NCBI GenBank assembly: GCA_029204225.1
Contig: CM055100.1
Location: 24,313,106 to 24,377,105, forward strand
Direction of reading: 5' to 3'
DNA from: Diphasiastrum complanatum
Taxonomy: Eukaryota > Streptophyta > Lycopodiopsida > Lycopodiales > Lycopodiaceae
DNA length: 64,000 bases
This document shows, piece by piece, positions 25,249 through 60,700 of this stretch. Position numbers and translations under genes: made by a program. A model generated the notes under the pieces. That model searched no databases. It saw only the letters and a list, made by a program, of their open reading frames with translations, and was not told where the DNA came from. Within the stretch, counting starts at the first letter, position 1. The number at the start of each line of letters is the position of its first letter.

Positions 25249-25250
25249 CG

Positions 25251-26709: not shown

Positions 26710-26711
<2 letters not shown>

Positions 26712-26776
<65 letters not shown>
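26712..26776. repeat. (CT)n microsatellite
   Basis: About 32 CT units. Confidence 0.96.

Positions 26777-26780
<4 letters not shown>

Positions 26781-26960: not shown

Positions 26961-26961
<1 letters not shown>

Positions 26962-27026
<65 letters not shown>
26962..27026. repeat. (CT)n microsatellite
   Basis: About 32 CT units; sixth long CT tract within 2.1 kb, all with C and T on the plus strand. Confidence 0.96.
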
Positions 27027-27029
<3 letters not shown>

Positions 27030-27549: not shown

Positions 27550-28430
27550 GAGGTGGTAATAATCTAGCATTATTCAAGCACAACTTGCCAATGTTTATCA
27601 TAGATCTGTTTATGATATGTAAAAATGTATGAGCAGAGGTCGAAATGCACCTTTGAATAAGTGATGGTATACTGCCTTAAACAGATCCACATATTTCGAG
27701 GTCTGTTCTGACCTCCAGTAATTCCAACCCATTATCAACATTGGCACAACTTGCCAATGTTTACCAGATATTTGTTTATGAAATTTTTAATGAGCAGAGG
27801 TCGAAATGCACCTTTGAATAAGTGATGGTATACTGCCTTAAATAGATCCACATCTCGACCTTCACTGATTCCAACCCATTATCAACAGATTCATCAATAC
27901 AGGTAGAGAATTGTTTCTAAAATATTAGACCTCGGCCCCGACACTACGGCCTCTTCATGATTTGTCCTTCTGACCTCCTTAGCAAAACACGCTTTTTGGT
28001 GTTTTGCATCCCTTTGGTCTTTTGGCTGTTCGCTCTCTCTGATGGTGGTCACTGCTATATAACTACCACGTTGAGAAGCATTCATCAGTAGTTGGAGGAT
28101 TCTATTATTGCGTAGATCAGTCATCTAGAGTCTATTCTAAATCACCATTGTAACCCTTCTTCAGGGTGCACGAATTGGATAGCACCATCATATGTACTGG
28201 TTTAATTATCAGAATTTCAGTTTCATGTTTATTGTTTCTTGTCTATGCTAATTTAGTTGTCAATTATAATATACAATCTACCATTTATGAGGTGGTAACA
28301 ATCTAGCATTGTTCAGGCACAACTTGCCAATGTTTACTTGAGATCTGTTTATGAAATGTAAAAATGTATGAGCAGAGGTCGGAATGCACCTCGGAATAAG
28401 AGATGGTATACTACATTAAACATATCCATA
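27550..28430. repeat. Three copies of a 166-bp repeat unit, one displaced
   Basis: CACAACTTGCCAATGTTTA begins units at 27,579, 27,745 and 28,318. Each continues GAGCAGAGGTCG(A/G)AATGCACC and GATGGTATACT. The first two are adjacent (166-bp period). About 0.4 kb of different sequence separates the third, whose upstream flank (GAGGTGGTAA.AATCTAGCATT) also matches that of the first. So a larger duplication (period 739) includes the unit. Confidence 0.85.
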
Positions 28431-28433
28431 TAT

Positions 28434-28676
28434 TCACACTCTTGATGCAGACTTGGATTCATAAAGCTTCTTCAAAGCTTCCAAAGCCTCCAAAGATGAT
28501 GTGCAGTTACCAATCTCCTTGAGAAGTTCATTGGTAACATTCATCTTTATCATGTTTAGAGCCCTTTTGGCCCTCTTATCATACCTCATTTGATCTCGTT
28601 GAGTTGTTGGTCTCTCCTCCAAACCTATAACAATATTCAAAACATCATTCATCTCAAGAAGTGATTCCATATTCAC
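28434..28676 (-). pseudogene. Copia gag fragment
   Basis: On the minus strand MNDVLNIVIGLEERPTTQRD, YDKRAKRALNMIKMNVT and EALEALKKLYESKS follow the UBN2-type Copia Gag pattern (usually ...dvWevVeG...P..., ...d..Ak.aI...l...l...i....tA.e.W..L...Y). A short remnant with no knuckle. Confidence 0.7.
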
Positions 28677-28779
28677 TTTTCACAATGAATAGTTACTTGA
28701 GGTAAGCCTATCATCGCCTTATTGTGAAATGGATGCCAAAACTTTTATGTATACTAACTAATAGCTACAATGTCAATAC

Positions 28780-29800
28780 TATGAGAGATTTCAACAAGTT
28801 TAGTCATATTTTGTTAAATTGTCAATTGAGGCCAAAACTTATTTTAGACTTAGAGATAAACTTTTTGAAGTTATATTAGTTTAAAATACATTCAATAAAC
28901 ACTTTTTGAAAGTGTGGGAAAGTTGGTAGTCGAGTTTGAGAGAGATTCAAATTTGAACTTTGGGTACATTGAATCTAGTCCCAAAATAGTAGGGTTTTTC
29001 ATATTGGAGGAAAAGCCAAGTGGCAAAGTAGGGTTTGGACCTGTTATATTTTGTTGTAACTCATGGAGAAAGGGATCTTCTCTCTTCTCTCTCTCATTTC
29101 ATCATTATACATGGTTCTCTTTGGGTTCTACTACTCATTGGTGCACTCTCATGATGTTATCTTGCAATTCTATGTGTAGAATGATAATTTATTGTTATTT
29201 TCGGTTTCACACGTGTGAAATACAGTCATTAGAGGAGTTCTAAATCCAAAAAAGACCCTTTGTAAAGATTCTTTTTATATTTTTTCTCAATTTTTTTACA
29301 CATGGGCCAATCAAAACACTCAAATTTGAAATCTACGTAACATAACTTTTTGAGTCCACATTTTGATTTCACACTAAAAATGGCATAACTTTTTAGTGGT
29401 AAATCCAAATTTAGCGGAGTTTGGTGCATTGGAAAGCGCTCGACAAGGGCTTTCCAATGATTTGTTACATGACATACTTTTGAGCTACAATCAAAAAATT
29501 ATGGCAAGTAAAAAGTACTGAGTGTTATAATATTTTAATAATATAAACTACATCTTGCACGAATTTTTAAAGGGTCTTTTTGGAGCTCCAAACTCCTCTA
29601 TTGAGGATATTGTAATTGTACAAAAAGCAACTATATTTTATGTTTTGGTTCATATTTAATCAGTGTCTCTTAGAGTTTGCATCTCATTTTGTATGTAGAT
29701 GTTGATTTTTCTACATTGACAGGATTGTTGGTTTGCTCTTTTTTGTAACCAAAGATCAGGGACATAGATTTAGATCTTGAATGATCTGAAATCCTTCACA
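28780..29800 (+). repeat. Copia 5' LTR of the solo-LTR family, carrying a MITE
   Basis: Begins TATGAGAGATTTCAAC (first G mutated to A) and ends ATCCTTCACA, directly followed by the primer site. It is 1,021 bp because of a 371-bp insertion at 29,230-29,600; without it the length matches the 654-bp solo LTR at 1,856. Confidence 0.9.
29230..29600. mobile_element. Non-autonomous inverted-repeat element (MITE) inside the LTR
   Basis: A 371-bp insertion absent from the other LTR copies, with about 30-bp terminal inverted repeats. The left end is TAGAGGAGTTCTAAATCC... and the complement of the right end is TAGAGGAGTTTGGAGCTCC..., and both continue AAAAAGACCCTTT. An internal hairpin pairs CATTGGAAAG with CTTTCCAATG near 29,428-29,461. 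No ORF. A clean target duplication is not obvious. Confidence 0.8.
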
Positions 29801-33968: not shown

Positions 33969-34408
33969 TTGGAGTTTCCTTTGAACTCTGAGAAATGGTG
34001 TTGAAGGTTGTGTTTTAGAAAATGTTGAGTGTGCTTAATGCTTAGCTCTCAGTGATCAAGGCTATCTTCTTTACTCTCAACATCAATCTCCATCTTGAGT
34101 CATGAGAGTCAGCTGGTTCTGAGAGAGCCATCCTTTTGCTTTGTGAGGAATGACAATACTTGTTGAATGCCAATGCATTGTAAGGAGACCCATTGCTCCA
34201 CCAAGCTTTGTAAACTATCCATGTTGTGACGTAGCCATTGTTTTGAGAGAAGCCAGGGCTGCAAGAAGCTATTGAAGTTGTGCTTTGAGAGAAGGCATGC
34301 TTTAAGAAACCAATTCACAACACTACTTGTGGTTAAATTATGAGGTAGAGCGTTGCCAGGCAGTGTAGCAGCAAGCAAGGCACGACCAGTAGCAGTGGCC
34401 GTGAGCAG

Positions 34409-37400
34409 TATCCATGATCCTACCTGCATGCGAGGGGGACATCCCATTCGTACAACTGAGGACCTCATCATCACTCATGGATGAAAAATGGGACGACCCA
34501 CGACTGCGGCCAGATCCGTGACTTGGAGATGTGTCACGAGACATTCAGGATACGATTGGGATAATTGCTGCAAGCAATAAAAGATATTTATAGAAAATAC
34601 AACCCTGTAGAGTTAATGAGTGCAAGAAATAAATTCAAATAATTGAGTTTAGGGTTTAGGGTCGAACAAAAAAAGTGACTCTTTGCATTCAACCATAGAT
34701 GAATAAATTACTAATACACCACAATAATCACAAATAACCACAATAATTACACTTTATAGCAAATAAACTAAATATTTCTACATGGTTTAGGGCCAAATAC
34801 AGTTCAATTACATAAGTAGTCAGGGTTCAAGATTACATAAAAACTAGCTACATCGAAAGATGGTTGGCAAATGTACGAATAAAAACGATAGATGTAAAAT
34901 CATATAGATAAGTATCTGTAAACATGGAAAGGCTAGCTATAGAGCCAAAACACTAGTTAGATCTATCTAATTCCTCCTCATCATCTCCGTCATGTGGAGC
35001 TTGTTGTTCCTTGTTAGGGGAAAAAGTGATTGGTCCTGCCAGAAAGCCCTACAGGGAAAGGACCCACACTGTCCTTACGTGAGTAATCAAGGCCTTGGCC
35101 ACTTCCAATCCTGGGGGCTCCACTGATTACCTCGTACTCCCGGGTCAATGAGAGTTTTTCAGGCTCTCAAATGTATGACCAATGGGAGAGTATGCTTACA
35201 CAAATCCAAGAGCTTCTAGTGAATTACGAATACGTAGTGTATAGTAAGCCTGTGCTACCCAATGATGATGATCACGGATGTGTACAAAGGCTAGAATCTG
35301 AAAACCATTTGCGTTAACTTCTATGGCGATGTCTCCAGGACAAACTTTTTTAGCTGTGGTGTCAAATGCTATTATTTCTATGTTGACATACTCTAAGACC
35401 CGTATAACTAACCGAAATCGGTGTGGGTCTCTAAAGTGTGCTCTATCCATGACATGACTCTAGGTATGCATCTAAAATTGCTGTATAAGTTTGTTGGAGT
35501 TTGTCTCACAGTATGGTGCTATACAATGGTACAAATTTCCATTCAGCCTTGGGTGGATGTTATAAGACTCTCTAGAAGATGTGGGTCTTTGCCGTCTAGA
35601 AACACTCATCATATATGTCATACATAACACATATACATGGACCACCTATCTCCACATCCGATGATACCTTTCAATGCAAAAGATGATCGACTTACACAAA
35701 GTTCTCTTGTCATTGACAGTCTTCTTGAGACAACTAGTGATTTCATCTGTTGTTATTTTGAAGTGTCTAAGAACATCCTCTTTGAGCCGAATATGACCTA
35801 ACTAAGGTGACTCCCTATAGAGTAGGTCTCTAGATCATTCAATCAATTACTGTGAAGTAGTTGTTTCAATGCTAACACACATCAAACCACAATAAAACTT
35901 CACAAGTGGTCACTTTCATCACAACTTCTCAATTCCTATCAAGGCATTGTCTCTGTGTCCCTATTTCTTAGATCTAATCTTAGCCTCTATAATGTCATGT
36001 GGGCATGTGTTTCCAGAGTCAAAAGTCTTTTACTGAATGTATAGCCGAGGCTTGGTAAGGGTGATGATCATTTGTGTAGGATGTCTATGGTACTTGACCG
36101 ATATTTTTAGGTGTACCAGGTGAGGCTAGTACATGCATGCAAAAATAAAACTAACACGTCATTTCCTAGTGACCTTTCGTGCAATGTGGGGGTGCCAGTT
36201 ATACGCGCCGCCTTGTTTGCTAGGCGGTAGTATTTTTTCAACAATTAGGCCTAGATATTTCGCTAAGCAATTCCAATGGTGGAGGTGACTAGATTGACTC
36301 TTAACCAAAGTGGTGTACTTCAACCACAGATGGTGGACAGCCCACTCTTCTATTTCAAAGCGGTCGGGTTATGAAAATCAACATGAACAAGACACAGATT
36401 AAGAAACTGATAGTAAAAACCATGTCACCTAATCATACTACGATGTTTATATTGATTGAGGCGCACACACATGATGCTAGAAAATTATCTCAAAACACGT
36501 ACACAAGACCATTGTGAGTTACTTTAAGTAAGACAGTTGCCTAAAAATTTATGCTAAGCATAAAAAAGCATGGTACGTGTATTTTCTTAACCATTCTTAA
36601 TGCTCACACATATCACCATCCTATGAGATGCGGTCATTTCACTAATTCACAACACAATGCACTCATTTTCTTTAAACAATAACAAATGGATTTGAGAAAA
36701 TGTATACCTTAGCACTGTGTTGGGATCAAGCTCAGTGGAAGGGGATCCAGTTACCAATCATTTAGATGAACCATCTTGTGTTGGTGTGAGGCCTCATAAA
36801 AATATATTGCCTTCAAAGCACTGGCCTGAGAGATAGAGAGCACGTCGCTCTAGCTTGCTGGCCCGTGGAAATCACTCTAAGAAGGTCGCGCTGGGGAAAG
36901 TGGAGGTGGGCACACTTTGCTGTAGCGAGATCGCACATATTCAGGTCTTCTTTGGAGTGGGATTACTTCACATAGTGATGAGAAAGTTACAGGGCCTTCA
37001 ACCAGGCTGTCAGACAGCGCCCTCTGCTATCTCTCTCTGCTCGCTCTTACTCTCGCCTTCTGCCTTGTTCGTGTCTACTGGCTTGAACTCTTCTGTTGCT
37101 CACTTCTGCGCTGCTCTTTTCCCTCAGGCTCGCTGCTACCTCTGCTCGCTCTTACTCCTCCTCGCTATCTGCTGCCTACTGCTCGTTCCTTCTTAAAAAT
37201 CTATTGTCAGGAGCTTTTGACATGCGGGAGTCACTCCATCTAAGCCTCTTGTAGCTGAAATATACTCTTGAATGCCCGACTTGCAAAAGCTGTGCTTTCA
37301 TGCAGTTGCAATAGCATCTTCTAAAGGATCGTGAGAAATACTGCAACATTCATAAGCGTTAAACTGAGACTGGCTCTGTGTGTAAAGAGCCTGATAAAAA

Positions 37401-37533
37401 TCTTCCTCTCGAGCATCAAAAGCATCTCTTCAAAGAAATGTGGTTTTGGGTGGAAGCGTTCCTTGCCCTCGCTCCTCTGTCTCGTTGAGCTACTCTTCTT
37501 ATCTGTTCACTTCTTGCTCTGACAAGGGTCTCA
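34409..37533 (-). other. Three-kb inverted segment of locus II
   Basis: The reverse complement of locus III 46,840-49,816, about 95% alike by eye in sampled blocks such as GCCGCCTTGTTTGCTAGGCG (36,210) and CATGCGAGGGGGACATCCC (34,427). It carries the family's presumptive promoter (telo-box TTTAGGGTTTAGGG at 34,646), several short frames without recognised domains, and the gene's first codons. No long inverted repeats are seen at the breakpoints. Confidence 0.85.
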
Positions 37534-38312
37534 CTTGTGCTCCACAACCCACAACCCTATGACGGAGGTGTTCCCCCTTTCCACAAGGGTCTATCCGACG
37601 AAAGTCCCTCTCCCACGCACCCTAATGCCAATGCCTCTTCCCAACATTCCGGCCGGGAAAAGAGAGATCGTAGGAGTCATCGCCTCAGCGCCGGCTCTTG
37701 TTGTGGTAGTGATGTCGATGATGTCGTGCTTCATGCGGCCTCGAGTCCAACACATCCATCTAGCAGGCCTCGTCGTAGGAATTTCTTACTTCTAGAAACC
37801 CTAACTCAGGAAGCAACGCGGATGGCGTGTGATACTTATGACTCTTGCATCTATCACACCTGATTATCCCGACACCCTCACACTCTCTCTTCACATTTTT
37901 TCTTTTTCAGTACCCACACCCCCTATGGGGTCTCCATGGCACCGTGATCCCTCTTGCCAGGCCACTCCACCCATTTTTTCTTCCACTCAAACCCCTGTTG
38001 GTTACACGCCCACTCTAACTCCTCCCAAACCTTCTCCTCTTCATACCCCTCCCCACTCTTCTCGTAATCGCCTTCAAACTCCTCCCCAAATTTCTCCTGT
38101 TGCAGTCAACTCCCCCACTCCTCTCGACACTCCCTTTGTCACCTCTCCATGAGCTGACGTCTTTCCATCCTATGACATAGATGCGGAGAAGCACATAGTG
38201 GAGGATGACCGCGGTGGTCGCATCATCACTTGCATGAGGCAACTCACGCATGTGGTCTTCAACAAGAACGTTTTCAAAGACTGGTGCAAACAAAGTGATG
38301 AGACCCGCACTG
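37534..38312 (+). pseudogene. Locus II gene body (Ptta/En/Spm-associated type), truncated
   Basis: Basic Ser/Arg-rich stretch (SGREKRDRRSHRLSAGSC, SSRPRRRNFLLLETLTQE), an intron-like gap with acceptor CTTTTTCAG at 37,902-37,910, a Pro/Thr-rich linker, then DIDAEKHIVEDDRGGRIITC and MRQLTHVVFNKNVFKDWCKQ. It is cut at about 38,312 by fusion to a promoter-region copy. N-terminal codons are lost to the inversion. Confidence 0.6.
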
Positions 38313-39550: not shown

Positions 39551-41350
39551 ATGTACTGGCTGGTATTGGGCCGTAGGAATGATGAAATGCCCTCTCTAGA
39601 ATTAGAAGACCAAAAACCTCTCTATGAGCCTGATAGGTCGATAGATACATCTGAGATGATGACAGAAGAAGAACTAGTTGAAACCATAGACACATTTCTG
39701 GTGACCTTTGATCAAAATGTGAATAAAAGCAAAGAACTTACGTTGACAACACTAGATACGATAGACCCTGAAAATAAACACGTCATATTAAAAGACCACT
39801 TGATCGAACCAGAGGTTGAGCCACAACTAAAAGAGGACCCACAATTGGATCTACATGGATTCTCATACGCAGAGCCAGATCTAGCTATAGAAATTTTATT
39901 GCATGAGACTAGTCTACTCCCTAGAGGACCAAGTCCCACCATAGATGATGGGAGGAGAGCAACAAGAGATCCACTTCTCTTCCCATCAAAAGTTATGGAG
40001 ACTCGAGAACAGTTACCTCAAGACCTAGTGCAGCCGATTTGCAAATAGCAATAGCACTCTCACTGCAAGAGTGGAAAACAACCTTCAGATACCCACATAG
40101 ATGACATCCCATCAGAAGTGGAATTAGGAGAGTGCTCAACTCGATATGACAATGAAGGCGAGATATCTAATCCAGTTGAGAGTTATAGTGATGAATCTGA
40201 GTGGGAGACTATATCTGAAAAAGAAATTGAACCAATTTCCAATGACGTGGGAAGTGATAGAGCAATAAGTGATGAAGAGATAGTAGGTGATGACATAGTG
40301 TCAGAATGGAAAACAAGGACCGAAAGTGAGGTTGAGTCAAATCTGGACCTCGATCAAATAGATCATGATGGACAGAACATGAAAGAACAAAATTTAGCTG
40401 AAGTTAATGATCGAGCTCAAGCATCGATTATGCAAACACCTGACTATATATCTATCACACGGGTAATGAGGAGAGTCACTCAACCAATAGTTGTCCCAGA
40501 TCACACCGAGAGGATACCTAGTATAGTAAGCTCCCTACACAATTCCATGGAAACAATGATGAAGATGCTTCCAACAGATATAAATATAAGCCTATGGACT
40601 AAACATCCTGATAGACGAGCTGAGACCAGTGATCACAGGCCCCGTACACATTTCGAAAAATCACGCATACCCAGAGAGGCTAGGGCGAGTGTACTAACAA
40701 TAACCCGAAGTGAGTTACGACCAGACCACCCTAGAAAAGTGTGGATGCAAGAGAGTGATAGGCAAGTGAGTCTTGGGAAGGCCACTAAGTATGAGGAGGC
40801 AGCACCATCAATGTTTAGTGACCAACTTGATCAAGTTGTACCTCTAGACGAGGACAACAATAACACTTCAGAATGGGCAGAAATAGACAAATCCACATAG
40901 ATGGCCCCAATAGACTACCCTCTTCGATTACAACCACTAGATCTAGATGCACCAACTTTTGGTAGCGGAAATACTACACTCCCTATCCTTGATGGCATTA
41001 ATCAGGAAGAGTCATATGGTATACAGAACCTATTCGAAGATTATAACAATGTAGTGAGCAAGAATACATCGATACACACTAGCAAGGATGGGTACCAAAA
41101 CTATACCCAAGAAACTCAAGAGGTATTAAGTGACATACTCCATTGGGAAGAAGACATGTCAAGCTATATCTCCGAAGTTGATACCGAGAATAGAGGCCGG
41201 GAACCAAAAATTAGAGAGGAGATGAGGAATACTATACCTCCAACCATTAGAGGAGTTTTGAGCACCAAAAGAGACTTTTGTCAAGATGTTGTTTTTTACT
41301 TTTCAACTATTCGACGTACACTTGGCCCAGTTATATATTTACACATATGA
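39551..41350 (+). pseudogene. Long acidic ORF of unknown function, interrupted by three TAG codons
   Basis: One reading frame of 600 codons runs from 39,551 to the TGA at 41,348-41,350, broken only by TAG at 40,046, 40,052 and 40,898. The protein is rich in Asp, Glu, Ser and Thr: ELVETIDTFLVTFDQNVN, EVEPQLKEDPQLDLHGFS, SDESEWETISEKEIEPIS, then a more basic part (RAETSDHRPRTHFEKSRIPR). There is no zinc knuckle, protease, RT or membrane segment. Its position after a primer-site-like motif suggests the first ORF of a retroelement, or a gag-like structural protein, but I do not recognise it. CAG-to-TAG decay would explain all three stops. Confidence 0.5.
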
Positions 41351-41663
41351 AAGACCGTAAGGTTGTTTGACAGTCGAATTTTTTTTTGGAACTTTCCGGT
41401 CATATTTGTATACATTTCAAAACTCCTGCTGGACAGGGTCCGACTTGTGATTGGACAATAATTGCTGCCAGTGAGTTTCTTGAGTGTCCAGGACCTAACA
41501 CTTGTGGTTAACGTAAGTCTATTTTGATCCAACCGTAGCTAGAGTAACATATATGATTTACGAAAGACCGCCAACATTTATTACAAATTTGGTTTTTTAT
41601 TTTCATACTGATTCATCTACATTTTGTTTCAAACTCTATTGTTCATCTTCTTTTAGTTTTGCA

Positions 41664-43060
41664 ATGGCTTCCGGAAGTCATAGACCACGAAGCAATATTG
41701 TCTCAGTTTTTGTTTGTAATGAAAAAGACTCTGATGGCTCTTGGATACCACATATCTATAGAAAATTTCACCGAGTTCTCATGCATCCCTCATCAAGAAG
41801 TGTTTTTGGTAAAAAGAGAAAATCAAATATGGATTATAGGAGCTTTTTGAAAGGTAGAATTTTAGACTTCAAAGTTTTACCCGGTGGTCGATCCATTTCA
41901 AAGGTCTTGATTCAACATGTCTACATGCATAAAGAAATTAGAGTGGAAGGCGTAAGTTCAAATGACAGAGTGCAATTGTAAGTTTTAGAGAATTTTTTGC
42001 TTTGAGGGTTGCATTAATCATTTAGACGTGTGTCTGAGTATTTAAATGACATATAGTTTTATGGGTTTGTGCAGATTAATACATCAAGCATAATCGAATG
42101 ACAACCTATACAATCCGTTGTCGACATCATGAACATTATTCATTCTGATATTGGTCTTCTGCAATACAAGAACCGCTCCACGAGATCACTTTTGGATTTT
42201 TGTATTTTCTTCTATAATTCATTTTACACACCATCCAATTAGGTGAAAAATTAGAGGCGATATCATTACCCTCTTTCTCAAGCGAAGAATGGATTCCTCC
42301 AGATTCCACCATAGCAGAGAGCTTCCGATCAAGATTTTTTATGAACATTCAAAACTGTATGAAATGTAGCACAGGTTCAAAAAACAATAGATTGCACTAG
42401 TTTCTGCCTTTTGCAATATTTGTAAAAATGTTTGCTGAATGTAATATTCGTAGAACAGTGACAATGTCTATTTGTAGTGATTTAACAGACAATGTTATCA
42501 AACCTCCTTGATGATCATTGGAATAAAAAGAGTAATGGCAATATCGAGTGCATAGTTAATAGATCGTCAATGAAATTTAGATATCTTATGAAAAATCAAG
42601 TGCTTTCTTTAACTTTCTATTATAAAAGATGGTCCAAAGTTGGCAATGAATGGAAAGCATTGGGTCAGGATTTTACAATGAATCATCAAGATCAAATAGA
42701 AATCCAAGTGAAGCAAAATAATTCTACTATTACAACAATTGAGGTGGAGGAAGATTGGACACTCGATCACATTCGATCAGAGCTTACCTTGCTGCAATAT
42801 GATATTCCTAAACACTTCTGTTTTTTAATCAACAAGAGATTGGTAGGTGTATGTGTGTTTATTTCAATACACATTTGAAATGACTTTCAATGATTTAGAT
42901 ATATTTCAGTGTTTTCGGTATTGCAATATTTCATTTAAAATAATCTCAATGTTGATATTGTTTAACAAGTTTCTTTGATGTACAGGTAAGACCAAGACAA
43001 GAAAGTCGCATACAATGCAAGGACTTAAATAGAAGCGTAGAAATTGTCAAAACCGCATAA
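41664..43060 (+). CDS. Spliced gene with ubiquitin-like C-terminal segment (unknown)
   Basis: Exon 1 (41,664-41,980) starts MASGSHRPRSNIVSVFVCNE, contains YRSFLKGRILDFKVLPGGRS, and ends at a GTAAGT donor. A later exon (about 42,489-42,842) holds LSLTFYYKRWSKVGNEWKAL and ITTIEVEEDWTLDHIRSELT. It joins across a 143-bp intron (GTAGGT...TACAG) in phase to a last exon (42,986-43,060) reading VRPRQESRIQCKDLN and ending TAA. The order of beta-strand, TLDHIR helix, PKHFCFLIN and RQE..I.CKDL resembles a ubiquitin-like fold (inference from pattern only). The phase between exon 1 and the second exon does not match simply, so an exon is missing or the gene is damaged. Its last 36 nt overlap the 3' end of the convergent H3/protease gene. 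Confidence 0.45.
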
Positions 43061-44578
43061 ACATTGGAATGATAATAAGATTTTCAACATTTCGTGCCGA
43101 TACTGATGAATAGCATTTGTTGATACTTCAGGACATTGAAACTGCAAGATAAAACATCGAGTGTATGTATGTATTAGCCAATGTTTAAAAAAACATAAAT
43201 ACACCAAGCTAACATAATATCATCAGGATACTAAAACTTGAGAAAAATATCTCACGGATACTAGCATTTGGAGGTTGCACCCTATACCAATCCAAGAACG
43301 ATTTAACATTTCAGATGGAAAACCATCCACAGCTGAAAGCATCGTTTTGTTGCAAAGACTGAAAAATCACAACGAAAACTTGTTAAATTATAATTCAATA
43401 TAATTCTAAACTTCATGCCATCATGCAAGTAAAAAACGTGAATTTTTTTTTTTTTACTTTTGCATCAATAATCTCTATGTTAGTATCTACAATCACCCAT
43501 CCAGCATGGGCAATCGCTCCACCATCCTCTTGTACATGGACCCATGGAATGGGTGGCATGCAGCTTCCAGTAGAATCCACTTTCATAGATATGACGTGCA
43601 CACTCCAATGTTTGCTGCCAACAAATGACAAGCAATGAATTACTAGAATCTATAAGAGTTTTCAAAAAACAAATCTTATAGAAAACAAGTATTACAAAAA
43701 GAAATTATCTTACTTTGAACAGTATGGGATGATGAACGTTGACACCTCCACACCCGGATTCAACTACTGTGTCTAAGATATAGGAAGTCTTCTCTTTTAG
43801 CTCCCTACAATGCGGGTCTTTGATATGCATTGCAAAAAACCTCTCAGAATCAAAGAATGTGTCCTTAGGATCATTGGGAAGTCTGATGTGCAACTCTTTA
43901 TCAGTTGCATCAACATCAGTAACAATCATGTCCACCACTGTATTTAAGTCATCCGCATATATAGAAGGAGAATTGTGCATTTCAAGATCAGGAGTTAGGG
44001 GAGGACTCTCAACCCATGGAATTGCAGACGTGCTTGCCAAATCTTTTCTAATGCGAGGAGGCGAGGGTGAAGAGCTGGGAGACCTAGGCTTGGGTTGCGA
44101 ACGCTTGGGCTGTGCTTGCTTTCTCTTTTTTCGGGGTGGGACAGGCCCCCTTTCAAGAGGAACTTACCTCTGTGTGAAGCCAGACTTAAAAATGCTATCA
44201 TAGGTGTTTCGAAGCCTCATGACAAGAAGCATGTCCTTGGGCATCAGTGTCACTCTCTTGGCATGTATCGAGCACAACATCGAATCCTCAAACATTTTTG
44301 TTTGGAAGTCCTCGTATGCAGTATGGAGTGCCTCAAATGCAGTGATATTCCACCTCACTGAATAGGGCAGATGAGTGGTCATATCTTGTGTGACCTCCCT
44401 CATAGCCCGGTAGAAGGCTGCTTTCAAGATCTGAAGCTTGGTGCTGCAATGCCCTAATGTCCCTCAACCATGGACGGCTCGGTCTTCCACATCTTTGCAA
44501 ACGTACGGATTCAAAAGTCTGTAGACGGGATGGTTGAACAAAGCTGGTAAGCCTAGCGGTTTGCTTTGTCCGAGCCAT
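43025..44578 (-). pseudogene. CENH3-like histone fold joined to Ulp1/C48-type protease
   Basis: On the minus strand the gene starts MARTKQTAR, identical to the canonical histone H3 start, but position 9 is Leu rather than Lys and the tail is short. [10 protein letters not shown] fits the H3 alphaN helix. After a frameshift near 44,437 come [12 protein letters not shown] (alpha 1), a long loop 1 with VRW as in CENH3, [12 protein letters not shown] (alpha 2) and [20 protein letters not shown] (loop 2/alpha 3). A TAA (44,164) lies in frame. The same frame continues PTPKKRK, a nuclear-localisation-like stretch, and a Ser/Pro linker. Downstream exons (donor at 43,713, 43,458-43,614, then from 43,358) carry KHWSVHVI, IEIIDA and QQNDAFSCGW, which match the His, Asp and Gln/Cys positions of SUMO-type C48 proteases. 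The last exon is 43,025-43,141. Frameshift, stops and one phase mismatch indicate decay. Whether the two domains formed one protein is inference. Confidence 0.68.
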
Positions 44579-44649
44579 TGAGGCCGGATATCTATACCAC
44601 GCGAGGACAGAGGCACAGCAGTAGAGAAAGATAGATTCTCTCCCGTGAG

Positions 44650-44830
44650 GGCGATACTGGAAACTTTGAGGATGATATCGCTACGACGCGAGAGAGTAGC
44701 AGAGTTAGGCGGGAGGAGGAAGGCGCTCGCGTGATGGCGATATTGGGCACTCTGAGGCTGATATCGCTACGACACGAGAGAGTATAAGGGTCAGGCGGGG
44801 GGAAGAAGTCGCTCGCGTGATGGCGATATC
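44650..44830 (-). repeat. 86-bp tandem duplication in the H3/protease gene leader
   Basis: GGCGATA starts units at 44,650, 44,736 and 44,822 (partial). Each contains GATATCGCTACGACGCGAG-like and CTCGCGTGATGG motifs. The same two motifs occur in reverse orientation upstream of the divergent gene at 45,470-45,648. Confidence 0.88.
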
Positions 44831-44928
44831 AGGTAGGCAAGTCCTATGAGAGCATTCGAAGGAGAAAGCAAATTGAACGAAAACCTATACAATCATCAAG
44901 AATGGACTTATATAGGCAAAAAAGGTTC

Positions 44929-45300
44929 ACACGTGTGAAAACTTGCGACACGTGGCCCAATCAGTAACTGACGTGTAGAACAACATGTCTGTATATGCAC
45001 GTGTGAAACTGCACGTCTGGAGCAACATGTGTGGGATTTCACGTGTGGATATGTGGTCGAATGGTACAGTGATGTGTATTCTTGCACGTAGAAGCTCGCG
45101 CGTGTGGGCATGTGGGCCAATCAGTACCTGACGTGTGGAACTACACGTCTGTATCCGCACGTGTGAAACAACACGTCTGGGATTGCACGTGTGGACACGT
45201 GGTCGAATGGTGCAGTGACGTGTATTCTCGCACGTATTAGCTCGCATGTGTGGGCACGTGGCCGAATGGCAAATTGACGTGTATTGTAGCACATGTGGAC
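44929..45300. promoter_or_regulatory. ACGT-core array between divergent genes
   Basis: Seventeen ACGT cores in about 370 bp, mostly CACGTGTG, GACGTGT or GCACGTCT, within imperfect repeats of about 150-165 bp (for example CCAATCAGTAACTGACGTG at 44,958 and CCAATCAGTACCTGACGTG at 45,117). ACGT is the core of G-box/ABRE-type bZIP and bHLH sites. The array could equally be a subterminal transposase-binding array. Confidence 0.65.
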
Positions 45301-45469
45301 AGTTACATTACGCGTTAGAGATCTGATCTGTTGCTGGATCGACGCGTGTATGGCTTGGATTTTATTGGTTTTAGCTATATAAATATTCTTTGATCAGTTA
45401 AAATCTTTCGCTAATTTATCGATTTTCACTCCATGTAGCTCTTGGTATGTCAACAATTCTAGTTCTTTA

Positions 45470-45648
45470 CAGTATCGCTACCATGCGAGAATCTAATTCA
45501 GATTCTATACGAGCTGGCATCCCTCGCGCTGTTCCGATATCCGGTCATTCACCAATATTGCCATCACGCGAGGATTGTCTGATAGTCTTCTAACTTCCTG
45601 CCATCCCGCGTCGTAGCGATACTCGACCCTATTGTTCATACTTCAGAC
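45470..45648 (+). promoter_or_regulatory. Leader of the divergent gene sharing motifs with the H3/protease leader
   Basis: ATTGCCATCACGCGAG (45,555 region) and CCGCGTCGTAGCGATA (45,607 region) match, in mirror orientation, the leader motifs at 44,650-44,830. The two genes thus have homologous 5' regions pointing away from each other. Confidence 0.65.
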
Positions 45649-46119
45649 ATGGTCGCCTCATCTTCTAATACTTTTGATTCTGCGTTGCATGCTTTCCTCA
45701 TTGAGTCTGGTGTTGGTAACCACATAGGTCACTATAAGATGTATTTCAATATGTCTTTTGATATTGAGAGGTTTGGATCTGAACATAAATCATATTTTTC
45801 GGCGTTGTATAAAGAGTATTATGATAGTCTGAATCAGTCTATGTTGATAATGGATAATCTATGATTCATCCATTTCCATGACCTGGTACTTGCCCAACCA
45901 CCAAAGCAAGCCCACAACCGACGATTCACGAAAAATGTCCATTGTGACCAGCACAATCGCTTTTTGCAGGAGGGCATGGGCTTTGTGTTTTATCTTTTTG
46001 ATCCTGAAGAGGTAGGAACTTCGAGGCTAAGCATTGAGGGTGCCTCACCATCAATTGATTCTGTGATATCAGAGTCAGCTGTTGTTGATGACGTCTTGGG
46101 TGCTGGCGACATCAATTGA
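45649..46119 (+). pseudogene. Short gene of unknown function, divergent from the H3/protease gene
   Basis: A frame of about 156 codons starts MVASSSNTFDSALHAF and ends DDVLGAGDIN, with a single internal TGA at 45,862-45,864 (probably CGA before; the same frame continues FIHFHDLVLAQPPKQ). It has a helical first half (FGSEHKSYFSALYKEYYDSL) and an acidic tail. I do not recognise it. Shared leader motifs tie it to the neighbouring minus-strand gene. Confidence 0.5.
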
Positions 46120-46394: not shown

Positions 46395-49300
46395 CATAGA
46401 TCTGGAGTTTCCTTTGAACTCTGAGAAATGGTGTTGAAGGTTATGTTTTAGAAAATGTGAAGTGTGCTTAATGCTGAGCTCTCAGTGATCAAGGCTGGTC
46501 TTCTTTACTCTCAACATCAATCTCCATCTTGAGTCATGAGAGTCAGCTGGTTCTGAGAGAGCCATCTTTTCGCTTTGTGAGGAATGACAATACTTGTTGA
46601 ATGCCAAAGCATTGTAAGGAGACCCATTGCTCCACCAAGCTTTGTGAACGATCCATGTGACATAGCCATTGTTTTGAGAGAAGCCAGGGCTGCAAGAAGC
46701 TATTGAAGTTGTGCTTTGAGAGAAGGCATGCTTTGAGAAACCAATTCACAATACTACTTGTGATTAAATTATGAGGTGGAGCGCTGCCAGGCAGTGTAGC
46801 AGCAAGCAAGGCACGACCAGTAGCAGTGGCCGTGAGCAGAAGTGAGAGCGTTGTGCAAGGAGTGAGCATATCAGAAGAGTAGCTCAACAAGCCAGAGCAG
46901 CGAGGGCAAGGAGCGCTTCCACCCAGAACCACATTTCTTCGAAGAGATGCTTCACACAGAGCCAGTCTCTGAATGTTGCAGTATTTGTCACGATCCTTTA
47001 GCAGCTGCTATTGCAGCTGCATGAAAGCACAGCTTTTGCAAGTCGTGCATTCAAGAGTATATTTCAGCTAAAGAGGCTCAGATGGAGTAACTCCCGCATG
47101 TCAAAAGCTCCTGACAATAGATTTTTAAGAAGGAACGAGCAATGGGCAGCAGACAGCGAGGAGGAGTAAGAGCGAGCAGAGGCAGCAGTGAGCCTGAGGG
47201 AAAAGAGCAGCGCAGAAGTGAGCAACGAAAGAGCTTAGGCTAGTAGCCACGAACAAGCAGAAGGCGAGAGTAAGAGTGAGCAGAGAGAGATAGCAGAGGG
47301 CACGCTGTCTGACAGCCTGGTTGAAGGCCTTGCAACTTCCTCATCACTCTGTGAAGTAATCCCACTCCAAAGACGACTGATATCTGTGCGATCTCGCTAC
47401 AGCATAGTGTGGCCACCTCCACTTTCCACAGCGCGAAAGTGATTTCCACGGGCCAGCAAACTAGAGCGACGCGCTCTCTGTCCCTCGGGCCAGTGCTTTG
47501 AAGGCAATATATTTTTATGAGGCCTCACACCAACACAAGATGGTTCATCGAATTGATTGGTACCTGAACCCCCTTTGTGAATTGGAGAAATGACCGCATT
47601 TCATAGGATGGTGATATGTGTGAACTTTAAAAATGGTTAAGAAAATACATGTACCATGCTTTTCGATGCTTAGCATAAATTGTTAAGCAACAACTGCCTT
47701 ACTTAAAGTAACTCACAATGGTCTTGTGTACGTGTTTTGAGATAATTTTCTAGCATCATGTGTATGCGCCTCAATTAATATAAACATCGTAGTATGATTA
47801 GGTGACATGGTTTTTACTATCGATTTCTTAATCTGTCTCTTGTTCATGTCGATTTTTATAACCCGACCTCTTTGAAATAGAAGAGCGGCTGTCCACCATC
47901 TGTGGTTGAAGTACACCACTTTGGTTAAGAGTCAATCTAGTCACCTCCACCATTGGAATTGCCTAGCGAAATATCTAGGCCTAATTGTTGAAAAAATACT
48001 ACCGCCTAGCAAACAAGGCGGCGCGTATAACTGGCACCCCCACATTGCACGAAAGGTCACTAGGAAATGACGTGTTAGTTTTATTTTTGCATGCATGTAC
48101 TAGCCTCACCTGGTACACCTAAAAATATCGGTCAAGTACCATAGACATCCTACACAAATGATCATCACCCTTACCAAGCCTCGGCTATACATTCAGTAAA
48201 AGACTTTTGACTCTGGAAACACATGCCCACATGACATTATAGAGGCTAAGGTTAGATCTAAGAAATAGGGACACGGAGACAATGCCTTGATGGGAAATGA
48301 GAAGTCGTGATAAAAGTGACCACTTGTGAAGTTTTATTGTAGTTTGATGTGTGTTAGCATTGAAACAACTACTTCACAGTAATTGATTGAATGATCTAGA
48401 GACCTACTCTATAGAGAGTCACCTTAGCTGGGTCATATTCAGCTCAAAGAGGATGTTCTTAGACACTTCAAAATAACAACAGATGTAATCACTAGTTGTC
48501 TCAAGAAGACTGTCAATGACAAGAGAACTTTGTGTAAGTCGATCATCTTTTGCATTGAAAGGTATCATCGGATGTGGAGATAGGTGGTCCATGTATACGT
48601 GTTATGTATGACATATAGGATGAGTGTTTCTAGACGGTGAAGACCCACATCTTCTAAAGAGTCTTATAACCTCCACTCGAGGCTGAATAGGAATTTGTGG
48701 CACAAGCATCCCCTAGGATATTACCACTGTATAGCACCATACTGTGAGACAAACTCCAACAAACGTATACAACAGTTGTAGATGCATACCTAGAGTCATG
48801 TCATGGATAGAGCACACTTTAGAGACCCACACCGATTCCGATTGGTTATACACGTCTTAGGGCATGTCAACATAGAAATAATAGCATTTGACACGTTCGA
48901 AAAGTTTGTCCCGGAGACATCGCCATAGAAGTAAACGCAAATGGTTTTCATATTCTAGCCATTGTACACATCTGTGATCATCAACGTTGGGTAGCACAGG
49001 CTGCCTATACACTATGTATTCGTAATTCACTAGCAGCTCTTGGATTTGTGTAAGCATACTCTCCCGTTGGTCATACATCTGAGAGCCTGGAAAACTCTCA
49101 TTGACCCGAAAGTATGGGGTAATCAGTGGAGCCCCTAGGATTGGAAGTGGCCAGGACCTTGATTAATCACGTAAGGACGGTGTGGGTCCTTTCCCTGTAG
49201 GACTTTCTGGCAAGACCAATCACTTTTTCCCCTAACAAGGAACAACAAGCTCCACATGACGGAGATGATGAGGAGGAATTAGATAGATCTAGCTAGTGTT

Positions 49301-49705
49301 TTGGCTCTATAGCTAACATTTCCATGTTTACAGATACTTATGTACATGTTTTTACATCTATCGTTTTTATTCGTACATTTGCCAACCATCTTTCAATGTA
49401 GCTAGTTTTTATGTAATCTTAAACCTTGACTAGTTATGTAATTGAACTATATTTAGCCCTAAACCATGTAGAAATATTTAATTTATTTGTTATAAAGTGT
49501 AATTATTGTGGTTATTTGTGATTATTGTGGTGTATTAGTAATTTATTCATCTATGGTTGAATGCAAAGAGTCACTTTTTTTGTTCGACCCTAAACCCTAA
49601 ACTCATTTATTTGAATTTATTTCTTGCACTCATTAACTCTACAGGGTTGTATTTTCTAAAAATATCTTTTATTTGCTTGCAGCAATTATCACAATCGTAT
49701 CCTGA

Positions 49706-51290
49706 ATGTCACATGACACATCTCCAAGTCACGGGTCATCCCATTTTTCATCCATGAGTGACGATGAGGTCCTTGGTAATATGGATGGGATGTCCCCCTC
49801 GCATGCAGGCAAGATCATGGAGAGACTACGGGCTCGTTGGGATGCACGGAGTTCCAGTAGGTTGTCCACATCATCTCGTTATGAGGAGATCCAGTCCCCA
49901 CAACCCTTCGACCGACGTGTTCCCCCCTTCCACAAGGGTCTATTCGGAGAGAGTCCCTCCCCCCCGCACCCTAATGTCAGTCCCTCTTCCCGACATTCCG
50001 GCCGGGAAAAGAGAGATCGTAGGAGTCGTCGCCTCAGCACCGGCTCTTGTTGTGGTAGTGACACCGATGATGTCGTGCTTCATGCGGCCTCGAGTCCAAC
50101 ACATCCATCTAGCAGGCCTCGTCGTAGGAATTTCTTACTTCGAGAAACCCTAACTCAGGAAGCAACGCGGATGGCGCGTGATACTTATGACTCGTGCATC
50201 TGTCACACCTGATTATCCCAACAACCCCACACTCTCTCGTCACATTTTTTTCTTTTTCAATACCCACACCCCCTATGGGGTCTCTATGGCACCGTGATCC
50301 CTCTTGTCAGGCCACTCCACCCATTTTTCCTCCAAACTCCTCCCCAAATTTCTCCTGTTGCAGTCAACTCCCCCACTCCTCTCGACACTCCTTTTGTCAC
50401 CTCTCCATGAGCTGCCGTCTTTCCATCCTATGACATAGATGCGGAAAAGCACATAGTGGAGGATGACCGCGGTGGTCGCATCATCACTTGCATGAGGCAA
50501 CTCACGCATGTGGTCTTCAACAAAAACATTTTCAAGGACTAGTGCAAACAAAGTGATGAGAAAAAGAATCATATCATTGACCAATTGTATAAAAAATTTC
50601 CAGTCTCCTCCCTTGATTTGGAATTTGAGTGAATCTGGATGGGACGACGCATAGGAGGCGTGATGAGCCACCGCAAATCGGAGATCCGAGATGCGGTGAG
50701 AGCTGGCAAATCTGGGCCATACAACATGCACAAGGACAATTGGAAGTTTGCAAAGAAAAAATTTCGAAAAAATCCAGATCGTTTCAAGTAACAAAGAGCG
50801 GCAGCTAAGAAGCGTCTGGAGACGGCACCTGGGCAGTGGTGGCCAAGGTTCTTTTCATGCCCATTTTGTAAGTCTCCCCACCCATAAGTTGAATTTGATA
50901 TTGTCGTAATTCATGTGTTATTTGTGAATTTGTTAAAATTAAATTACAATCACCGATTTGTCGGTTCATGCAAAAATATGTCGTACAACGGTCTCCCACA
51001 AAAGAGGAGTACAAGTATGCATATTCCAATAACATGCAATCATTACTCGAATTGTTGGAGAGACAAGGAGTGAGAATTGAGGATGGATATTCTGAGGTAT
51101 GTATTATGGTTTCAACATATATTTTGACTTCACCACATTCATTTGATCGGACACTCTAACAACATCACTTACAAAATTTACACATCTTCATTGAACGTAG
51201 GTTTCGCAATCCTAGTCTCATGCATTGCAGTCACGTGAGTCTGATAACCATAGCCAGGACGGGAATGACTCAGCTGGATCTAATAATTAG
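49706..51290 (+). pseudogene. Locus III gene, Ptta/En/Spm-associated (Transposase_24-like)
   Basis: Starts MSHDTSPSHGSSHFSSMSDD. Exon 1 is basic and Ser-rich, ending near SSRPRRRNFLLRETLTQEAT. An intron acceptor that is CTTTTTCAG in locus II reads CTTTTTCAA here (50,252-50,260), so it is lost. The conserved block HIVEDDRGGRIITCMRQLTH leads via a TAG (KD*CKQ) to SHRKSEIRDAVRAGKSG, AKKKFRKNPDRF and LETAPGQWWPRFFSCPF. The donor GTAAGTCTCCCC (50,868) is conserved with locus I. Later exons read EEYKYAYSNNMQSLLELLER and, at the end, SHALQSRESD...NDSAGSNN. The block resembles the transposase-associated domain of plant En/Spm-type elements; no catalytic domain is seen. Confidence 0.6.
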
Positions 51291-55400: not shown

Positions 55401-57711
55401 CACCATCAATTTTACTTGTTCGTCTTGAAGCAAGTATTAGTGTTTAGCAAAAAAGTTAACTTATGCTACTGTATATATACACCACTACTTCTCATATTGG
55501 AACAAACTGGTTGACATTGAAACGTGATCTACAAACCATTTCATTTCATATTATGCAGGCTGCATCAGGCTCTCTTAGTACTCCATCTTTGGAGGAGCTA
55601 GCTTCCACACTGGATAGATCTGAGGAGATTATGTAACAGCTGCAGATTTCTATGCATCAGGTACAAGGCCCTAGGCAACAAATGCAGGATATTGTAACTT
55701 CTATAGGAGGCATTTATGATGGTTGGTTGCATCTTTGCAACCTTCTTAACAATAGCCTTTAAATATGATGGATTATGGTTCTATTTCTACTTCTCCTCTC
55801 ATTGTTCCTATTTCTCAAGCTCCTGCTATAGTTACACGTCCAGATAATCGCAAGTTATCACTTGTTCAGGATTCAAGCATAAGATCCAGCTTATTTGATT
55901 CTGACAGCACTAAATTGGATAACTTGATTGCTATGCTTGAGATTGATTTTGAGATGTATCACAAAAGCAATTAACAAATGAATTAGATTGTTGAAGAACC
56001 TATCAAAATAGTATACAGTAGATCCACGTCGATTGACTGGTTAGGAAACCTACAATCGATCCCCATTTAATTATGAGAGATTGATATACCTTTCAAAACT
56101 TACAGAAGGCAGGTATGGTTTGTGAGTACACCGACAGGTTTATTGTGTGGCCTTATCTCTTTCAAGGTCAGTATCTGTGTTTTAATTACCCTCACGGCTG
56201 TATATGATAATGAAGAGTAGCACTTCGATTTATCTACAAAGGTAACCGGATTCTGGAGAATCGTCAATAATGTGCACACTTGGTCATCATCAATGTGCGC
56301 ATATAACTTGTAAACAATGAACATGGCCATGAGCCTCCACCATACTACGAGCAATAATGGAACTAGGAGGCTGTGCATGATTTTTAGCCCAATAATTGGT
56401 GCCTTTGCACTTAAAGGATAACTTGCATTATGAATCTCAACTTTCGCTGCAGCTTGGGTCAAGATGGAAGCACTACTGAATCATTATACTTCTGATCTAA
56501 TAAGGTAGCAAGTGACAAAACCTGCACAAAGTTATCTAGTTAAAATGATGGAGGCATAATGGAGGCCGTAAACCTAGAGGTAACCTTGTAGAGAGCACAG
56601 TCATCTCTTTTGCCTTATGTCTCTTAAAAAACGTAGGATGAGATGCATGTGATGATCTACTAATAGTAGTAACAGCTGAAGATGTACTAAAAGTAGAATA
56701 TCAAGATGGAGCTGTTTGTACAACCTTAGGGGCTATAGGGACTGGCATATGCAAATCTGCATACTTATGGTCAAATGTGGCAGTAAGAGACATGGTCTTG
56801 GAAAGTGAAGATTGGAAAGAGGTAAAATCATACCAAATCTCCACCCTCTGATACATAACGTGAGATGATCTCACTATGAGGAAGACTTGGAGTTAAGTAA
56901 AACTTTAGCCGAGACCACTAGGTACTAAAAAGTTTATAGAATGACCTATACCAAACTCTCCATGTCATTTGATACAGAACTTGAGATGATATCACTATCA
57001 GGAAAACCTGATAATAAGTTAGAGAGCTTTATAAACTGATCTTTATACTGAATAAGGTCCCAATTTGTTGCAAGCTACACAAGGTATTCTTTTCAAGTGG
57101 AAGCCAGTGTGAATCAATCATAGCATTCCTAATATGTTGTTAAAAGTCCTCTGACCTCATCAAACAACGATGGTCTCTCTGTCGTCCACAGAGTAGAAGC
57201 CCTTCCATCTAAATGTGAAGCTGCCAACTGGACCTTCTGTACCTCACACTCTCAAGGTACATCTGGAAGTATATCTCAAGCTTAGCCAAAAAAATTTCAA
57301 TTCATTGACATCAAATGAACCAAAATACACAACGAGTTGTGTTTTTCCCTTGCGATCACTTATGTATCATGAAGTACCACTGCATTGTTATCAAGAACAA
57401 GTGGAGACTCAAACAATTATAAAGATAGAAGCTGGATTTTCAAGACGGGTCGGATGGAAGGCCCGAAATCGCCAGCGTCCCGAGCGCGCAGGTGCCCAAA
57501 GGCCCGCCACAAGTGGTGCACGCTTGCAGTCCCCGACAGGCGCCGCGGCATCGGCGGGGTCATCGCAACCCCGCTTTTGTCGCACCAAGCCTGCCCACGC
57601 TGACCAGCGCCCCGCATTGAGTGGCGGACCAGCTCTCGCCATTCCGCATCCACCCGGGGCTCACCTGCAGCCTCCATTCGCTTCCCTCCCAGCAATTTCA
57701 AGCACTTTTTA

Positions 57712-57768
<57 letters not shown>

Positions 57769-60700
57769 TCTTGCCTGTATTTAGCCTTGGATGGAATTTA
57801 CCACCCGCTTAGGGCTACCTTCCCAAACAGCCCGACTCGCAGACAGCGCCTCGTGGAGCAACAGGGTCCGAGCTCGACGGGGCTCTCACCCTCTCCGACG
57901 TCCCATTCCAGGGAACTTGGGCCCGGTCCGTTGCAGAGGACCCTTCTCCAGACTACAATTCGCAGGACAATGCCACGCGATTCTCAAGCTGGGCAATTTC
58001 CGGTTCGCTCGCCGTTACTAGGGAAATCTTGCTTAGTTTCTTCTCCTCCGCTTAGTGATATGCTTAAACTCAGCGGGTAGCCTTGCCTGATCTGAGGTCC
58101 AACCTTGGGGCACAAGGCCGGGTTGCAGGACCGCGGAGGCCCCGGGACACGAACCGTGTGCCGAGCTGTTGCGTTGGCGCTGGGAGCACGCGGCTCCGAC
58201 CGACAGGAGAATTCGCCCCGAGAGGGACAGACCACCTGGCCACGGCTTCTAGGGAGCAGCTCCCACGCGCACTCTGTATTTCGGCTGACCGCTGGCGCCG
58301 GGTCGACTTGTCGCGGAAGGCCAATTGCACTCCTTCGACGCCCGTAGAGGGGGCATGAGGGTGAGGGGGGGCGTTGACGCTCAGGCAGACATGCCCTCGG
58401 AACGAGCCTCAGGCGCAACTTGCGTTCAACAACTCGATGATTCACAGAATTCTGCAATTCACATTACGTATCGCATTTCGCTGCGTTCTTCATCGTTGCA
58501 AGAGCCAAGATATCCGTTGCTGAGAGTTGTTTCGGTTATGCATGTTTGGGACCGCCGTCCCGACTCGTCTCCCGACATAGAGAGAGAGAGGGTGGGCAGG
58601 CGGCGGCCATCGCCGAGAGTCGACGCCGAGCCGGAGGAGGGGTGTGTCGTGGGCGGCAGCCAGAGCGGTCGGGCGTCCCTGGACCGGACGAGCGCGGTGC
58701 AAATATTTTTGCATCGTATGCTTGCACGGAGTGGGGTTGTTTATGTTTTTTCTGTTCATTTTCAGTTTGAATTTGAGAACAAGCTGCATTGTGTGTACAT
58801 TAGTCCTCTTTTGTTATGCTTCCAGAGTGTTTTTTAAGTTTTGATTAATCTCCTACTTAGGTTGTCAATTTAAGGATAATGTCCAGCTTGTTAGCAAGCC
58901 TCCTGCAAAGGGAGGTATTTGGCCAAAATTGATATGCTGTTTGAATAATTTGAAGGCTGAAGCGCTTAACTTTGGACTCTTTGTCTGGCTCCTAGTTGTT
59001 GAGAAATCACTCCCAAAGGAATAGAAGGAAAGGTATTAATACAATGTTGCTTCGTTGTCCGTTCCGGAACGGAACGCGTTCTGGAACGCATTCCGTTCCG
59101 GAACGGGGGACCCTCACAAAAAAAATAAAAAAATACGTTTTTTTACAAAGGAAAAAAAAACCATATCTAAAGAAGCTTGAGGAGCATCTTGTGTGAGATA
59201 AGATTGAACACACAAACAGGATCGTCCACAAGGCTTCCTGCTTTCTTTCCGCAAGATCACCATTGCTGGAAACTCCTGGACTATCTCAGAGTAGCGATGG
59301 TTGAGTAGCTGTCATATCGCAGAGCATAAAATATGTCAGTCATCGATGTACAGAAAAGTCTGCTCAATTTCTAGAAGAATTGCCTTAGTAGGCTTCAATT
59401 TCCAGGAGTTTCTTTCCGCCACAATGAGAAATCTTGGACGCAAGCTCACCATCGCTGGAGCTCATCGCCTCCGTGAAGCTTCCTTCCAGAGTGCCTTATG
59501 GCTTCCATGGCACCTTCCTGTCCTCGTTAGAAGTATGACAACTCGCTATCTGAGAAATGCAGAATGCGTGGGCATTTTTTTTTTTTTACTTACACTAACT
59601 CGTTCTGACCCAGTACATTCCGGACGGTACGGAACGGACGGAACGGAACGTCCCAACCCATTTTGTTCGGAACGGGCTTCTAAGATGTTGTAAAGAAAAT
59701 AAAAAATTCTTTGCAATGTGATAGCAAAAGAAATACAACAGTTAAAGTGATTCTTATAGTCATTACATCATTGGGCCTATTCTGGACCCAAAGGCGTTAT
59801 TAGGCACAAGCTCGTTATTATATGGGCCCTCACTAGAATTTTCACTCAAATGCTACTTGAGAGGCACAGAAATAGGACTTGTAGGATGTCTATTCGAATG
59901 TGCCTTGGTGATGTTAGCACTCAGTTGAAAGCTTCTTGGGAGGTTCTCTTAAGAGCCTTTAGAGTAGTGTTGAGTAACTCAAGAGCATTATACAGTTTGT
60001 TTACCTATAAACTTGAGTCATTCATAGGAGGCTCCACTACAGTTCTTGGTATGAGATCTATAGCCATCCTTATCACTTTTTGCCATTCTGCTACACATGG
60101 ATGAAACAGGAACGGTACAATGTTTGGATCTCTAAGAACATGAATGTTTTTGAGGGAGGTGGGACATCACATCATCACCTATCTTTTTTCTTAAGAAAAA
60201 AATAAAGATTTCAAGATTTCGATTTTTGATAACAATGTTCAAGCACTCAATTTATAGACTATAAGTACCAAAGAGGAGAAAAACAGATCTAGCAAAAAAA
60301 AAAATTGGCCCAAAAATGGAAAGGGATTTTTGACCAAAGGTACAACATTGGTCCCAAACCTCAAGTCGCAATGGGAAGGATTGGGAATGCGTTGCCACCT
60401 GTTTCCCACATTCCCATGTTGGGGGACAAATGGGAACAACGTTCCCTAGTCCTAGGAGGCGGGAACTCATTTAATGATAAGTATGTTCAACTGTGATACT
60501 TTTGCAATTGATCAGCTTGGAGGGACAAAGCTTGCTATTCTAGCCTAGCATTGTGTGATTTTTGTCACTTAGCCATCCAAACACAATTTGATCCATAAGG
60601 CCTCAATACATCTAAGTATTGTCCATACATATCACTAGTCACATATAACTCTCAATAGTGATTACATCCCTTCTATGTGTGCCAAATTGTCCTCTATGGA

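Follow-up and report, generated by a model that had tools for sequence, protein, structure and literature searches.

Introduction

Histone H3 genes and Ulp1-type protease domains have each been described as cargo of transposable elements. In the fungus Pyrenophora tritici-repentis, a multicopy hAT transposon with terminal inverted repeats (TIRs) and a shorter derivative carries, beside its own transposase gene, an H3-like gene, H3L, which is reported to fit neither H3 nor CenH3 (PMC3538342). In the Vandal transposons, KIU is placed in an anti-silencing context and contains a Ulp1 domain whose precise role is called unknown (PMC13317346), and VANC is an anti-silencing protein with tandem-repeat non-coding regions as its targets (PMC5735166). 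Ginger1 transposons carry a C-terminal Ulp1 domain (PMC2836005), and other epigenetic genes are also carried by transposons (PMC12730594). Among the matches listed in a search of the literature on histones, CENH3 and Ulp1 in transposons (subscription papers and Repbase lie outside its scope), no H3–C48 fusion was found; within that literature, transposon-borne H3 and transposon-borne Ulp1 are each already known separately.

Here, we analyzed a stretch of 64,000 nucleotides (hereafter, the window) from Diphasiastrum complanatum (assembly GCA_029204225.1, CM055100.1; C9:24313106-24377105). It holds one copy, now damaged, of a DNA transposon found dispersed in the genome, whose accessory gene very probably joins a histone fold, a basic, nuclear localization signal (NLS)-like linker and a C48-type domain. 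Like the fungal hAT, it is a multicopy TIR DNA transposon with a shorter derivative and an H3-like gene that appears to be neither H3 nor CenH3; the fungal element differs in its host and its hAT transposase, in having H3L as a separate gene and, in the available passages of the report, in the lack of any mention of a C48 domain (PMC3538342). Vandal resembles the present element in being a plant transposon that has a Ulp1 domain in an accessory protein (PMC13317346), and the tandem-repeat targets of VANC are paralleled by tandem repeats upstream of the H3-C48 gene (PMC5735166). In contrast to the element described here, which has TIRs and a transposase-like protein without a Pfam match over cut-off, Vandal is a non-TIR MULE, for which the available text mentions no histone fold (PMC13317346, PMC5735166). 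Ginger1 is similarly a DNA transposon with Ulp1, but there the domain belongs to the transposase, and the word 'histone' has no occurrence in the text available (PMC2836005).

Results

The window carries a damaged copy of the element

The features of the window copy are given below, with the evidence for each.

41246..46109, minus strand: transposon copy, oriented as the H3-C48 gene (collinear DNA matches with other copies; sharp common end)
41246..41267, plus strand: terminal inverted repeat CATTAGAGGAGTTTTGAGCACC (shared ends; count of its core in the genome)
41553..42878, plus strand: remnants of ORF C, a third element gene (window ORFs; homologous ORFs in the complete copy e; no Pfam match over cut-off)
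43028..43141, minus strand: exon 4 remnant, divergent after LKILLS
43251..43358, minus strand: exon 3, with QQNDAFSCGW (Gln and Cys); TGA after CGWFSI; donor AT in place of GT
43458..43614, minus strand: exon 2, with KHWSVHVI, which supplies the catalytic His; a deletion has removed the stretch that includes the Asp/Asn position
43714..44163, minus strand: basic linker (PPRKKRKQAQPKR), then the beginning of the C48 domain; internally deleted relative to paralogues
43714..44578, minus strand: exon 1 of the H3-C48 gene, damaged (donor AAA/GTAAGA at 43714/43713)
44164..44166, minus strand: TAA stop
44167..44463, minus strand: H3-type histone fold piece (Pfam PF00125, E = 3.4e-19; H3 in the PDB, about 2e-15)
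44440..44578, minus strand: MARTKQTARLTSF..., the histone tail, followed by the beginning of the fold, in another frame than the remainder (window translation; copy comparison)
44640..44829, no strand: 86-bp tandem repeat with inverted CTCGCGTGATGGCGATAT motifs (repeat search)
44907..44914, minus strand: TATATAAG, a possible TATA box of the H3-C48 gene, judging by its letters
45011..45292, no strand: ACGTG/CACGTG-rich tandem repeats upstream of the H3-C48 gene (repeat search)
45640..46109, plus strand: fragment of ORF B, a second, divergently transcribed element gene (collinear with copy e and its ORF, which has no Pfam match over cut-off)

The gene-downstream end of the copy is intact at 41246, inside a window ORF (40901-41350), and the gene-upstream part is absent beyond 46109. 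Read on the minus strand from 44578, the gene begins MARTKQTARLTSFVQPSRL..., which opens the protein with MARTKQTARLTSF; the frame shifts between 44440 and 44463, and the H3-type fold then continues to 44167. The TAA at 44166-44164 is a lesion, since this codon is Q in most other loci whose frame reads on there, and for the same reason a splice donor at this position (AG/GTAAGT) is excluded. An earlier note on this DNA had described a damaged gene with these two lesions and the TGA after CGWFSI, and all three are borne out here. Its start of the gene at 44578 also stands; the end that it gave, 43025, lies in what is left of exon 4.

The copy is flanked by 4.2-kb repeats (33970-38303 and 46403-50561), the ends of which are direct and the middle 3 kb inverted (34411-37542 versus 46834-49821). 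An LTR element bounded by these repeats is excluded, as the ends of the family lie elsewhere in other copies. Elsewhere in the window, a retroelement-like stretch (1-1241 and 12333-13485) has a direct-inverted-direct arrangement too (175-526 versus 12437-12788 inverted), positions 24344-29211 hold two copies of a 430-bp repeat, extended TC/TA runs and units that recur at a spacing of about 580 bp, and a piece of nuclear rDNA, with the 5.8S gene and the beginning of the LSU, lies at 57379-58528 on the minus strand.

A paralogue reads as a single gene

The genome of the window itself (1.745 Gb, 5176 contigs) was searched for further copies. The first look gave 5589 candidates, of which 150 were scored; the histone piece matched in all 150 (E 5e-57 to 5e-45), and at eight of these places a frame stays open, with no stop, for 350 residues or more, approximately the length of exon 1 (356 codons in locus L028). 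One set comprised 30 loci extended by 1.5 kb of flanking DNA, among them the window as L001, and another comprised ten copies extended by 10 kb in either direction; four copies belong to both sets (a = L019, b = L021, c = L028 and j = L016), which gives 36 copies in all. In untruncated copies the order of the parts is constant, from the tail through the histone fold and a basic PRKKRK-like linker to the second domain. The downstream exons, aligned in 24 rows (22 copies, with b and c entered twice), are separated by three introns with GT-AG ends in most rows.

When spliced accordingly, the four exons of L028 read as 517 residues with no stop. The earlier note had proposed one gene containing both an H3 fold and a C48-like domain, and had named an intact paralogue with the two regions in one frame as a check on it; L028 is such a paralogue, and the one-gene reading is upheld by it together with the Pfam C48 matches in two of five paralogues described below. 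A protein search with the window read-through (residues 140-355 scored) found no match at E 10. The paralogue alignment, used as the query, matched three H3 proteins, in none of which precomputed domains or Pfam indicated a C48 domain.

The element has inverted ends and a transposase-like gene

Copies e, j and h and the window copy share one end base, ...CTCCTCTAATG, beyond which their flanks differ. Copy e is a whole element of 9.98 kb, with inverted ends CATTATAGGAGTTCCAAGGCCCAAAAGGGC and CATTAGAGGAGTTTTGAGCACCAAAAGGGC that are alike at 24 of 30 bases. The 18-base core of the TIR has 843 + 860 exact occurrences in the genome (1703), compared with 0 + 0 for the reversed control. Inverted repeats at both ends of copy e and dispersed copies identify a TIR DNA transposon and support the mobile-element setting that had been suggested for the gene. 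No target-site duplication was observed at the two sites inspected, copy e and a MITE whose insertion site is empty in copy i. This MITE, 310 bp long and with similar inverted ends, lies in copy h (L045) at −3671 to −3362 from the histone start.

Copy e has pieces of a transposase-like gene, which lie on the strand of the H3-C48 gene and upstream of it; in copies a, b, c and e, the DNA that holds such pieces is collinear with that gene. Five relatives of the protein (P0004-P0008; E 8e-111 to 3e-48) share a conserved VEWHLAGDLKTLKCM...HPCLYC block (GDLKTLKCM..HPCLYC). Neither the tested ORFs of copy e nor four of the five relatives gave any Pfam match over cut-off, MULE transposase and VANC domains included, and the fold prediction for the transposase-like protein (mean pLDDT 38) was not used; from its context and motif, we infer that the conserved element protein is a transposase. 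Two more element genes are present on the opposite strand of copy e, also without a Pfam match over cut-off. Upstream of copy e and adjoining it, locus L039 has ORFs resembling ORF C (MASSKKLCSS..., VEVEEDWSLNYIRRELLLLQ), which perhaps belong to a second related element.

A viral origin for the gene was also considered; the C48 alignment and the transposase relative P0007 have no confirmed relative in IMG/VR, and the introns and dispersed inverted-end copies favor a plant transposon over a viral gene.

The histone fold and the C48 region appear constrained

The ratio of nonsynonymous to synonymous change (dN/dS) was estimated by the Nei-Gojobori method over pairs of 30 copies, a set without the window copy, four near-identical duplicates and copy f; pairs below 75% identity were skipped, and the pair numbers are those with a synonymous difference. 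Pooled dN/dS is 0.22 for the histone fold (432 pairs), as against 0.67 for the linker (155 pairs), with 0.34 for the portion of exon 1 that encodes C48 (76 pairs; another 12 copies, truncated or shifted there, were omitted) and 0.49 for the tail and first helix (208 pairs, 25 copies). The histone value may be lowered because the copies were chosen through protein similarity, and the linker is the sole internal contrast. With this reservation, the fused protein appears to have been kept by selection.

These values bear on the alternative of neutral transduplication, in which the transposon captured fragments of H3 and C48 genes and carries them along without function. Gene capture by plant transposons is well documented in the available text of PMC13317346, and many copies of the present gene are in poor condition: across 33 copies (the 30 loci with d, g and h), a splicing script found splice motifs and at most four stops in only nine, with zero stops in just two, L028 and copy h, the latter without exon 4. 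Against this stand the uninterrupted 517 residues of L028, an exon/intron structure common to most aligned copies and the difference in dN/dS between histone fold and linker. We consider functionless carriage somewhat unlikely.

The second domain is C48-like with an altered catalytic site

Pfam returned no C48 match for the window pieces, either singly or joined, so the C48 reading rests on the paralogues; nor was there a match when exon 1 of L019 was joined to the window exons. Among five spliced paralogue domains, two pass the PF02902 cut-off of 20.7 bits (24.6 and 22.4 bits) and three, including that of L028, have no Pfam C48 match, and a profile search of the PDB found no C48 structure. 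Both PF02902 matches start within exon 1, so that the histone and the beginning of the protease domain share this exon.

The catalytic positions were read from the 24-row DNA alignment, in which b and c are counted twice and the rows left out of each count are gapped or unalignable. His is present in 20 of 21 readable rows and Cys in 14 of 19, being replaced in the other five, while Asn occupies the position of the catalytic Asp in 19 of 20; the stretch concerned, MTMNSL in the copies, is the one deleted from the window. The His-Asp-Cys triad of C48 is consequently incomplete, with Asn standing for Asp. The catalytic layout in the earlier note was therefore correct in part: KHWSVHVI does supply the His and QQNDAFSCGW the Gln and Cys, but IEIIDA, taken there to hold the catalytic Asp, aligns with an IEVVDA just before the Gln/Cys motif.

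Given the Asn in place of the catalytic Asp and the rows that have lost Cys, the enzyme may be weak or dead, and the Asn in particular casts doubt on deSUMOylation. The same substitutions would be expected if the domain were a pseudo-enzyme, a SUMO-binding module tethering the histone part to SUMO-rich silencing bodies. Retention of His and of Cys in most readable rows, and of a Gln-x5-Cys motif in the readable copy L028, argues the other way, and this possibility is in our judgment unlikely.

The histone part is H3-like and, in sequence, not specifically centromeric

The assignment to the H3 family made in the earlier note is secure: the curated PF00125 cut-off is 26.4 bits, the scores are 69.7 bits for the window histone piece and 79.9 bits for a read-through that includes the L019 exon, and H3 chains in the PDB match the window piece, with a four-residue insertion in loop 1. 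A fold prediction for this piece without relatives was not used; its mean pLDDT is 58.7, it has three helices and no structure matches it at E 0.001.

The tail was found in 32 of the 36 copies, with K4 and L9 in all 32, R8 in 30 and A7 in 20; these counts lean toward the family form because the search pattern, in which one mismatch was allowed, contained the scored residues. Canonical H3 has K at position 9.

A centromeric H3 had been suspected from the residues and loop 1 of the window gene, and the family histone does share with plant CENH3 a longer loop 1 and several residues (LLIP, RW, SMLC and TLM). Local alignment scores for four family members are about equal for H3 (195-209), Arabidopsis CENH3 (178-202) and CENP-A (183-196), and lower for rice CENH3 (142-170); the same members score 198-222 against the near-canonical H3 P0002. 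A small tree (11 rows, few strong forks) places the family beside the divergent H3 P0001, with a warning of long branches, and no grouping with CENH3 is seen in it; the two plant CENH3 rows in scores and tree, Arabidopsis and rice, are provisional sequences. The family further differs from plant CENH3 in its canonical-type tail, ARTKQTAR, its many copies and its C48 fusion. The centromeric reading is thus not sustained and, as far as these sequence comparisons go, the H3 part is not specifically centromeric. That a CENH3-derived protein steers insertion or retention at centromeres is very unlikely: the CENH3-like residues (ED among them) and long loop 1 speak for it, and against it are the absence of a CENH3 grouping, CENH3 scores (with the provisional plant CENH3 sequences) not above those of H3, the H3-like tail and the scatter along C1 of the inverted-end matches listed (all on C1 and the first part of C2).

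P0001 is a divergent H3 of 407 residues that has an 11-residue stretch and a following ...DYDKYF in common with the family described here, and could be a further H3 carried by an element.

Discussion

That a readable copy encodes the two parts as a single protein suggests that the element acts on host chromatin. The full explanation that we prefer, an accessory H3-C48 gene of an approximately 10-kb inverted-end DNA transposon with a role in chromatin, has in our estimate an even chance of being right as a whole. From the anatomy of the protein, entry into chromatin by the H3 fold and NLS-like linker, and action there through the C48 domain, is the most likely course.

The steps can be set out as follows. 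The protein would be nuclear, and its histone part would pair with H4 or dock on chromatin, bringing the C48 domain to the element's own copies, where it would remove, or merely bind, SUMO on silencing or repair proteins. The Leu at position 9 of the family tail would make H3K9 methylation impossible there in any nucleosome containing the protein. The outcome would be a local relief of silencing, or a more accessible template for the transposase, similar to the action of VANC and KIU of Vandal transposons. Anti-silencing is, by analogy, the best-precedented role, and we infer anti-silencing or chromatin access to be the most likely function; the specific mechanism is tentative, and we would put it at somewhat less than even. 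Upstream of the gene, the tandem repeats of ACGTG and CGCGAG resemble the arrays of motifs to which VANC proteins bind, and are putative binding arrays only.

A stronger version would make the protein part of a selfish nucleosome, in which an H3 refractory to methylation at position 9, fused with a SUMO protease, is installed on the element's own copies, blocks heterochromatin and strips SUMO from silencing factors; this we regard as distinctly unlikely.

The element unites in one protein a histone fold and a SUMO-protease domain, within a plant transposon whose transposase-like protein is foreign to Pfam. If active on chromatin, the H3-C48 protein would be a compact natural device coupling nucleosome identity to SUMO removal, and how a transposon defeats heterochromatin would become a directly testable question.
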